This document shows positions 10,093 through 25,697 of a DNA stretch of 64,000 nucleotides, in pieces. Numbering within the stretch: position 1 is the first letter of the stretch; each line of letters opens with the position of its first letter. The stretch spans positions 1 through 64,000 of the forward strand of contig NZ_FRAX01000007.1 of the NCBI RefSeq assembly GCF_900142465.1, given 5' to 3'. The translations under genes and the position numbers were made by a program. This DNA is from Fibrobacter sp. UWH6 (GTDB taxonomy: Bacteria; Fibrobacterota; Fibrobacteria; Fibrobacterales; Fibrobacteraceae). Below the pieces are notes generated by a model that saw only the letters and a program-made list of their open reading frames with translations, was not told the DNA's origin and ran no database searches.

Positions 10093-10221
10093 TATATTAC
10101 CCATACCAGATTAAACGACAAATTATTTGTCAATTAAGCTGCATTTTCTATATCCCCATAACGGTTTGCGAACTGGATTTTGGGTGCCTAGAAAGTGCAG
10201 CTTTTTTTGTTTGGAGGAAAA

Positions 10222-11055
10222 ATGAGAAGTATGGAAATTCAGAAGATGTCTTTTCCGAAGATTATGCCGCTGTTGGAATCGTGCATCCGTGAAATGGAGG
10301 GGGCTGCAAAGAAAATTCGTGCGACGCTTAAGACCTTCCCGATAGGTCGTCTTCGGGTTTCGCCCCACCGAGGTTCATATCAGTATTTTCATGTGGCAGA
10401 GAATAGCAAGCAGGTGGGATCAAGAGGGACTTATATCCCGACGTCGCAGAGGAACTTGGCTTGCGGGTTGGCGCAACGGTCGTACAATGAGACTATGACG
10501 GAGGCGTTTACCCGCGGTGCAGATTCGTTGAAATTTGCCTTGCAGGAATTGAATCGTCTAGAAATTGAAAATAGCTTCACTGCACAGGGACCTGGTCGTT
10601 GTCAGCTTCTTTGCCCCATTTATTTACCTGACGATCTTTACGCAGAACGCTGGCAGAAGGTGGAATATCAGGGGAAGCTTTTTTATGAAGACGAAGTTCT
10701 GCTGACCACCGTCAAAGGGGAGCGAGTCCGCTCAAAGTCTGAAGTCATCATCGCGAATATGTTGAATCAGATGGGGGTGCCGTACCGCTATGAATATCCG
10801 TTGAGGCTATCAAGCGGGCGAGTCGTCTATCCGGATTTCACATGCTTGAACGTCCGCACTCGGGAAGAATTTATTTGGGAACACTTCGGGCGGATGAATG
10901 ATGAGGACTACCAGGTGAAAACTTTTAGGAAGCTAGATAGCTATGCAATGGATGGTTATATCCATGGAGTCAACTTGATTTACACCATGGAGAATGATGT
11001 ACGCCCGGTGAATTCGAAAACCATTGAATTGTTGGTGCAGCAGTTCCTGCTGTGA
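10222..11055 (+). CDS. PD-(D/E)XK-like hypothetical protein
   Basis: The product has 277 residues. The C-terminal half (about 175-275) has features of a PD-(D/E)XK nuclease-like fold: SKSEVIIANML (helix with Glu), YEYPLRL, then VYPDFT and EFIWEHFG, where the last motif would supply the second acidic residue. The usual catalytic Lys is not obvious, because WEH stands where E-x-K would be, so activity is uncertain. The N-terminal half is helical and unassigned. The ATG at 10222 follows a strong GGAGG site; the frame extends 9 codons upstream but that start lacks one. No operon partner is seen. Confidence 0.75.
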   Translation: MRSMEIQKMSFPKIMPLLESCIREMEGAAKKIRATLKTFPIGRLRVSPHRGSYQYFHVAENSKQVGSRGTYIPTSQRNLACGLAQRSYNETMTEAFTRGADSLKFALQELNRLEIENSFTAQGPGRCQLLCPIYLPDDLYAERWQKVEYQGKLFYEDEVLLTTVKGERVRSKSEVIIANMLNQMGVPYRYEYPLRLSSGRVVYPDFTCLNVRTREEFIWEHFGRMNDEDYQVKTFRKLDSYAMDGYIHGVNLIYTMENDVRPVNSKTIELLVQQFLL

Positions 11056-11131
11056 GGCGTTGTGCGGACGTTTCAGCTGTAAGGCGTAAAGATGTGTTTT
11101 TGGCGAAAGATGCTGTCAAAATAGGTGGAAG

Positions 11132-11413
11132 TGGCTGTCGAAAATCGGTTTTATTCGGATTTGACCGCCACTTTTGGGGGCATTTACTGGTATTTTGTGG
11201 AAATATGGCTGTCTAAAGACGTTATTTAGGCGTTTAGACCGCCATTTTTTATGTGTTCACGCTAGTTTTGGGGTGGCATGGTGCTCAAAGACGTGTGTTG
11301 TGCGGTAAAATGGCTGTCAAAATGTCGTTTTAGGTGGTTTTGACAGCCACCCTGCGGTAGAAACACTGAAAATTTGGCGGTCAAGAAGTGCTTTTTGAAC
11401 ATTTAGACCGCCA
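11132..11413. repeat. Cluster of four 39-nt imperfect palindromes in a 516-bp non-coding stretch
   Basis: Four units at 11132-11170, 11206-11244, 11311-11349 and 11375-11413 are each exactly 39 nt. Each begins TGGC(T/G)GTC and ends GAC(C/A)GCCA. Unit 3 has 12-bp perfect arms and unit 4 has 8-bp perfect arms; units 1 and 2 have one mismatch near position 5. Loops differ in sequence but all are T-rich. Start-to-start spacings are 74, 105 and 64 bases. No gene is visible in 11056-11571. Further short dyads such as AGTTTGC/GCAAACT follow to the right. Confidence 0.7.
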
Positions 11414-11571
11414 GTTTGCGTGGTTTCGCACAATCTGCGAGATTTCGCGCATTTGAATCGCCAGCAAACTCCCTTGAACGAATTTCTGAAAATTTCTATC
11501 GTTGGCACGCGAAATCAACGAGAAACCGCTGTTTGGTGTAAGGCTCCTGTTGATTTTATAAGGATAAATTC

Positions 11572-25484: not shown

Positions 25485-25524
25485 AGGCAGTGGATTTCTG
25501 CAAAAAAAAGGAATTCCACTGCCT
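25485..25524 (-). terminator. Hairpin with minus-strand T run
   Basis: AGGCAGTGGA and TCCACTGCCT form a 10-bp stem. The minus strand continues into eight T residues, so it could end a transcript coming from the right before the small CxxC gene. A related hairpin in opposite orientation lies at 25648-25697. Confidence 0.5.
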
Positions 25525-25598
25525 TTCGGCATTGTAAATTGAAAAATAATGACCAGAGAATGCCTTTTTTCCCTAAAAGTGCTGCCCTTAAGGAGTAG

Positions 25599-25697
25599 TT
25601 GACAAGATTTTGGGACAATATACGCTTGATTTTGTGTGTAAACTAATAAAAAGGCGGTGTTTTGCTTTGATATTCAGTGATATCCACTGCCTTTTTT
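25599..25697 (+). ncRNA. Candidate small RNA with its own promoter and terminator
   Basis: TTGACA (25599-25604) with a TACGCT -10-like hexamer (25621-25626, 16-base spacer; overlapping TATACG gives 14) would start a transcript near 25632. It would end at the AAAAGGCGGTG/CACTGCCTTTT hairpin and T run at 25648-25697, giving an RNA of about 65 nt. No ORF is present. The remaining part of the 25451-25837 gap has only hairpins and short repeats. Confidence 0.3.

Follow-up and report, generated by a model that had tools for sequence, protein, structure and literature searches.

The palindrome array and the gene beside it

The window analysed here, a 64-kb stretch of DNA (64,000 nucleotides) from Fibrobacter sp. 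UWH6 (contig NZ_FRAX01000007.1, positions 1 to 64,000), contains four palindromes that are the array half of a two-part system, the other half being the neighbouring open reading frame (ORF) of 277 amino acids (aa), which encodes a nuclease-like protein. The array is located downstream of this gene, on one side of it only, and the features concerned are the following:

10222..11055, strand +: unannotated 277-aa protein, with ATG at 10222; a longer ORF starts with GTG at 10195
11132..11413, no strand assigned: array of four palindromes, assigned as cognate array to the nuclease gene next to it, from its position and from the rule of the family
11132..11170, no strand assigned: unit 1, 39 nt, half-sites TGGCTGTC / TGGCGGTC
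11206..11244, no strand assigned: unit 2, 39 nt, half-sites TGGCTGTC / TGGCGGTC
11311..11349, no strand assigned: unit 3, 39 nt, half-sites TGGCTGTC / TGGCTGTC
11375..11413, no strand assigned: unit 4, 39 nt, half-sites TGGCGGTC / TGGCGGTC

The four palindromes are real. All of them are found exactly where a preliminary description of this DNA had placed them, each 39 nt long and carrying TGGC(T/G)GTC half-sites in inverted orientation, and the 516-bp gap in which they lie (11056-11571) does precede, as stated there, an efflux (MFS) gene; the relevant neighbour, on the other hand, is the nuclease-like ORF upstream, homologues of which also adjoin such arrays elsewhere. A search of the window with the arm pattern and a free middle of 10 to 40 nt rendered exactly four matches, all of them the reported units, against a mean of 0.01 in shuffled windows, and four matches were reached in none of 100 shuffles. 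The search extended to the whole genome, which had been proposed as a check, gave eight copies, of which seven measure 39 nt and the other 40 nt; the reversed control pattern matched nowhere. A version of the pattern with two mismatches allowed became noise, with 272 matches compared to 321 for the reversed control. A second four-unit array of the same lineage is located between convergent genes (G000:C20:37992-38263; handles of this kind are our own labels for genomes, contigs and loci), with centre spacings of 63, 105 and 64 bp as compared to 74, 105 and 64 bp in the window (7.05, 10.0 and 6.1 helical turns), and the sister species G009 carries a third (L023). Copies are found, then, in related genomes, contrary to the possibility raised beforehand that there would be none. 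Among these arrays the lengths of units and gaps are preserved, whereas the loops and gaps differ in sequence.

Identity as a CRISPR array was considered and rejected, since the near-identical repeats and unique spacers of similar length that define one are lacking: the unit interiors vary as much as the gaps, which differ in length (35, 66 and 25 nt). The earlier judgement that the units are not CRISPR repeats was thus right, as it was for integron attC sites.

The compensated arm change that had been read at arm position 5 did not hold up. The bases had been read correctly, but the eight half-sites comprise four with T and four with G, so that by chance alone two of the four units would be expected to match. 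Among the 12 units of the window lineage, arm pairing was no better than in permuted arms (0.826 vs 0.809, p=0.17) and covariation counts were near shuffled values. Compensation between arms was therefore rejected for this lineage, position 5 being simply a degenerate base within each half-site. As for the proposal that selection acts on a hairpin or dyad rather than on sequence, a dyad of fixed length stands, and a hairpin in RNA is unlikely because the unit centres keep a strict 10.5-bp phase and the loop is free in sequence while fixed in length.

Association with a nuclease-like protein family, arm specificity and helical phase

The window protein has no match in Pfam or NCBIfam, a Pfam search of its relatives rendered scattered weak matches only, and a sequence search of the PDB returned no relative. 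In an AlphaFold2 model (predicted local distance difference test score, pLDDT, 92), the putative arm-reading domain (residues ~10-150) combines a helical hairpin with a beta-hairpin, and residues ~160-277 are predicted to form a nuclease domain of the PD-(D/E)XK, Vsr/EDxHD-like type. Structural matches to the latter include I-Bth0305I (Z 8.1), Bax1, TnsA (7.4) and Vsr (6.3), the best VIA match to residues 161-277 being I-Bth0305I, with a root-mean-square deviation of 2.8 over 90 residues; moderate Z values of a predicted model such as these indicate a fold, not a function. Positions E174, D205, E220, H221 and K237 do not vary among 23 homologues and may correspond to the E-D-x-H-D active-site residues. 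From the fold and the conserved residues we infer that the protein may be an active nuclease.

Of 80 Fibrobacter genomes, 49 encode homologues with 36-45% identity to the window protein (several per genome), and a scan across GTDB found at least 575 candidate stretches with homologues, including Treponema, Lachnospiraceae and Butyrivibrio, with 8 copies in T. bryantii XBD1002 and 9 in Butyrivibrio sp. VCD2006. Full-length homologues are all but missing from viral contigs and phage records, and a plasmid collection yielded the nuclease domain only, inside larger proteins, so that the system does not obviously appear to be phage- or plasmid-borne. The same nuclease domain was observed as the C-terminal end of plasmid-encoded AAA/helicase proteins (H1-H9) and of PDC-S68, a candidate for phage defence in PADLOC.

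An array detector that required two or more palindromes of 34-46 nt with shared arms, and nothing else, was positive at 35 of 38 Fibrobacter and 64 of 80 GTDB nuclease loci, as compared to 3 of 43 control loci and 1 of 118 dinucleotide-shuffled loci (0/38 Fibrobacter, 1/80 GTDB). Once duplicates were removed, an array was present at 71 of 85 homologue loci from Fibrobacter, Treponema and Lachnospiraceae; among these, arrays accompany 29/31 loci of the first Fibrobacter set and 23/34 of the loci from outside that genus. Another 20 loci were retrieved on protein similarity only, and a scan that slightly widened the limits of palindrome length found arrays at 19 of them, including Butyrivibrio and other Lachnospiraceae. 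Across nuclease loci, the array is often situated directly upstream of the gene. The association was also reached from the side of the DNA: a covariance model of the 12 units, another of the checks suggested at the outset, led in the 80 Fibrobacter genomes to three-unit arrays in which the 40-nt units lie ~95 bp from one another; their arms read TGGCGGTGAAAT, or TGGCTGACTAAA in the case of genome G034. Several arrays adjoin genes for homologues of the protein encoded immediately before the array of the window.

Two further kinds of palindromic repeat were noted. Four to seven near-identical palindromes stand in regular tandem, with a repeat of 74-76 or 95-96 bp, at some nuclease loci of Clostridiaceae, Treponema and Butyrivibrio (L165 1-485, L203 1197-1814, L241 2530-3147, L247 1108-1385), unlike the diverged arrays of Fibrobacter; and three identical 56-nt palindromes, TGGCAGTC...GACTGCCA, are located on one contig (G056:C15:3170, 11909, 59702; L024, L030, L031).

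At least 33 arm families, that is, different arm sequences, were distinguished among the nuclease loci. Identity of the N-terminal domain correlated with arm similarity (Mantel r=0.41, reached in 0 of 2000 permutations), and arms were shared in 13 of the 13 non-redundant pairs with N-terminal identity of at least 70%. On the other hand, pairs with at least 70% identity in the C-terminal nuclease domain and less than 50% in the N-terminal one shared arms in only 1 of 27 cases, the mean arm similarity of these 27 pairs (0.47) lying at the background level (0.52); L083 and L064 have near-identical nuclease domains and arms TTACGGACTAAA and GGGGCGTATAAA. These comparisons show, at the level of sequence, that arm sequences track the N-terminal domain rather than the nuclease domain, and that they are particular to each protein lineage. 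The beta-hairpin of the window protein resembles that of other readers of GGC-N-GT (SPHRGSYQYF vs SPHRGGFQYF), the single closest beta-hairpin being that of the L135 protein, whose arms differ.

The positions of the units within an array follow a simple rule. From one representative array per arm family, 97 centre-to-centre spacings were collected, and the period that stood out most was exactly 10.5 bp, with a phase near zero and R=0.91. For randomised spacings the maximum R averaged 0.15, and in 5000 trials none equalled the observed value. The spacings cluster at ~53, 63, 74, 84, 95, 105, 117, 137, 148, 158, 169 and 179 bp, and although those within a family are not independent, the lattice spans twelve different multiples of the period. 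As judged from these genomic distances, the analysis shows that the palindrome centres are whole helical turns apart, and therefore on one face of B-DNA.

These results bear on the possibility that the units act in transcripts, as hairpins serving as terminators, stabilisers of mRNA or parts of a multi-hairpin small RNA. Each unit could form a 12-bp stem, T runs follow some units, and in the GGCGGTGA lineage arm pairing slightly exceeds permutation (0.844 vs 0.815, p=0.003). However, the 10.5-bp lattice, which RNA folding does not require, is hard to explain by RNA and natural for proteins along one face of B-DNA; the loops are fixed in length and free in sequence, covariation is absent or small with half-sites varying nearly independently, arms change with the N-terminal domain of the linked protein, and no Rfam family reached its threshold. 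The only sub-threshold match, to the Trp operon leader, lies upstream (11027-11101), overlaps the end of the nuclease gene, scores 24.2 bits against a gathering value of 41 and is probably due to chance. We regard a role in RNA as highly improbable. The palindromes are, instead, very probably cognate recognition sites in double-stranded DNA for the adjacent protein.

Dispersed arrays and their possible spread

Gene-free arrays are numerous for at least three further lineages, with arms GGCGGTGA, GGCGTATA and TGCTACYAA. Arrays of the GGCGTATA lineage were found in 10 of 80 genomes, with up to 14 matches each, and those of the TGCTACYAA lineage in 11 of 80, with up to 18, the reversed-pattern control being zero for both and near zero for GGCGGTGA, whose count takes in some coding matches. 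All 16 orphan arrays inspected are intergenic. Dispersed arrays in one genome have arms and geometry in common and little else, except a T-rich unit centre and a pair of inverted inner motifs adjoining the outer units. The inverted inner motif TTAGTTTGTCTGTA ... TACATACAAACTAA, at the inner edge of outer units (L032-L056, L093-L105), is conserved from array to array, unlike the remaining spacer sequence, and may bind a second, shared protein.

The window itself contains one orphan array, of a second lineage:

25485..25692 (25485-25524, 25652-25692), no strand assigned: orphan array of two palindromes with arms AGGCRGTG

Its cognate nuclease gene is located in another part of the genome (G000:C2:20248-21078), between two direct copies of such an array. 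The sequence TGTGTAAACTAAT ahead of the second unit at 25485-25692 resembles TACATACAAACTAAT ahead of the last unit in the GGCGGTGA lineage.

At three sites with conserved flanks, an array present in one species is absent from the same intergenic region of relatives (G033 vs G046; G000 vs G007; G047 vs G001 and G004). Moreover, at L069, L083, L089 and L143 the gene is flanked by arrays that are direct repeats of each other. In L069 the repeat (335 bp, 97.6% identity) begins precisely where the first palindrome has its outer edge; the array itself therefore behaves as the copied unit.

Taken together, the best reading, which we consider probable, is a nuclease-palindrome system that resembles the repetitive extragenic palindromes (REPs) and their REP-associated tyrosine transposases (RAYTs), built on an unrelated nuclease. 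A homodimer would bind each palindrome, one subunit per half-site, with the half-sites about three turns apart, and several dimers would align on one face of the DNA to form a nucleoprotein complex. The Vsr/EDxHD-like C-terminal domain would then nick or cut DNA at or near this complex, and repair or recombination at the cuts could place copies of entire arrays at new intergenic sites as well as on the flanks of the gene, by analogy with RAYT transposases, which are thought to spread REPs and bacterial interspersed mosaic elements (BIMEs); the arrays may afterwards outlive the gene. Cleavage of DNA by the protein, suggested by the modelled fold and conserved residues, is rather likely. For mobilisation of the arrays, to which dispersal, presence/absence differences and direct repeats point, the chances appear even.

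Several observations weigh against this reading. No target-site duplication or exact junction is readable at the three empty sites, whose intergenic flanks have diverged; gain and loss are for that reason indistinguishable there, and loss of the array is as possible as its gain. Among non-Fibrobacter loci, 11 of 34 are without an array within 2 kb. The structural resemblance to homing endonucleases is modest (Z about 8). Finally, G033 holds at least seven GGCGGTGA arrays (L033, L052, L093-L097), and a cognate GGCGGTGA nuclease gene was not found among its two nuclease homologues, which adjoin other arms; arrays seem to outlive their cognate gene, as in this genome.

The main rival to mobilisation is a regulatory or chromosome-organising role, in which a domesticated nuclease would act as a transcription regulator or organiser of the chromosome and the arrays would be operators or anchors at its own gene and at a regulon. 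Helical phasing and dimer-like sites are typical of proteins that bind DNA cooperatively, the frequent location of arrays directly upstream of the nuclease gene would suit autoregulation, and orphan arrays were always intergenic in the inspected set. Nevertheless, orphan arrays also lie between convergent genes (G000:C20, G047:C1), where no promoter is expected, and the window array is downstream of its gene; array positions differ between related species, arrays are kept in genomes without the cognate gene, and the putative catalytic residues are invariant. A role of this kind is possible and, in our view, unlikely.

It could also be the case that the protein is a restriction-like effector that is tethered, sequestered or regulated by chromosomal arrays and released or retargeted on infection. 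The resemblance of its C-terminal domain to the end of PDC-S68 and to the C-termini of the plasmid-borne AAA/helicase proteins would agree with such defence or self-recognition, as would the presence of several paralogues with different arms in one genome. The window gene, however, is solitary, with metabolic neighbours on either side, phage and plasmid collections contain hardly any full-length homologue, and gene-free arrays would be hard to account for. Defence is thus improbable, and the REP/RAYT-like nuclease-palindrome system is kept as the preferred interpretation.

Comparison with known systems

No description of the nuclease-array pair was found in the open-licence literature searched, and one in a subscription paper or preprint is possible; the system is widespread in fibre-digesting gut bacteria and apparently undescribed so far. 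There is an even prospect that it represents a distinct class of bacterial nuclease-driven repeat system, in which a changeable arm-reading N-terminal domain joined to a conserved Vsr/EDxHD-like nuclease would assemble on phased arrays and spread them, with at least 33 specificities in three phyla and several paralogous specificities per cell. An unnamed protein family with no Pfam or NCBIfam model is tied here to a DNA target that can be read from the genome, and its at least 33 protein-target pairs are rare material on how a DNA-binding domain changes specificity; if the interpretation is true, they amount to a natural code that relates an uncharacterised DNA-binding fold to its target. The 10.5-bp rule yields direct predictions that can be tested by gel-shift or footprint, and the protein-array pairs, if arrays move, could serve as compact sequence-specific DNA tools.

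The arrays are similar to miniature inverted-repeat transposable elements (MITEs) and other small dispersed repeats in being short, gene-free, intergenic and patchy between species, but the copies of one lineage share arms and geometry and hardly any other sequence, and no target-site duplication was seen.

Among EDxHD (Vsr-like) homing endonucleases, I-Bth0305I, the closest structural match to the nuclease domain, binds as a dimer to a target that is very long, at nearly 60 bp (PMC3943268). In contrast to such enzymes, there is no intron or intein here, and the targets are palindromic, repeated in phased arrays, occur at many sites besides the one next to the gene, and stay intact where the genome carries the gene. 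The Tn7 end nuclease TnsA has a similar fold (Z 7.4), and Tn7 ends carry several ordered protein-binding sites; the window locus, however, has no adjacent TnsB, TnsC or other transposition gene.

The closest analogue by genome pattern is that of REPs and BIMEs with their RAYTs (TnpA-REP), which likewise combine a single nuclease-type gene beside palindromes, a palindrome sequence specific to each lineage and many gene-free intergenic copies. Palindrome and protein co-vary in REP/RAYT (PMC2817692), and they do so here (Mantel 0/2000; 13/13 vs 1/27). The two are nevertheless different families, set apart by the class of enzyme, by the tags on the palindromes and by how these are oriented around the gene. 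RAYTs are HUH/Y1 tyrosine transposases related to IS200/IS605, whereas the window protein, which has no Pfam match, is predicted to have a PD-(D/E)XK C-terminal domain. REPs bear at one end a tetranucleotide tag of the GTAG or CGTC type, two tag classes of REP palindromes being named in the title of PMC3733652, whereas the window units and their relatives start and finish at TGGC/GCCA, untagged. The gene stands between inverted palindromes in REP/RAYT, and here the array is one-sided (window) or in direct repeats (the L069, L083, L089 and L143 loci); the units are, moreover, longer (34-46 nt), with a free middle of fixed length, and arrayed in 10.5-bp phase. The system accounts for a class of unexplained intergenic repeats and, if our interpretation is true, would mean that the REP/RAYT arrangement was arrived at a second time, independently, among dominant bacterial degraders of cellulose and fibre.
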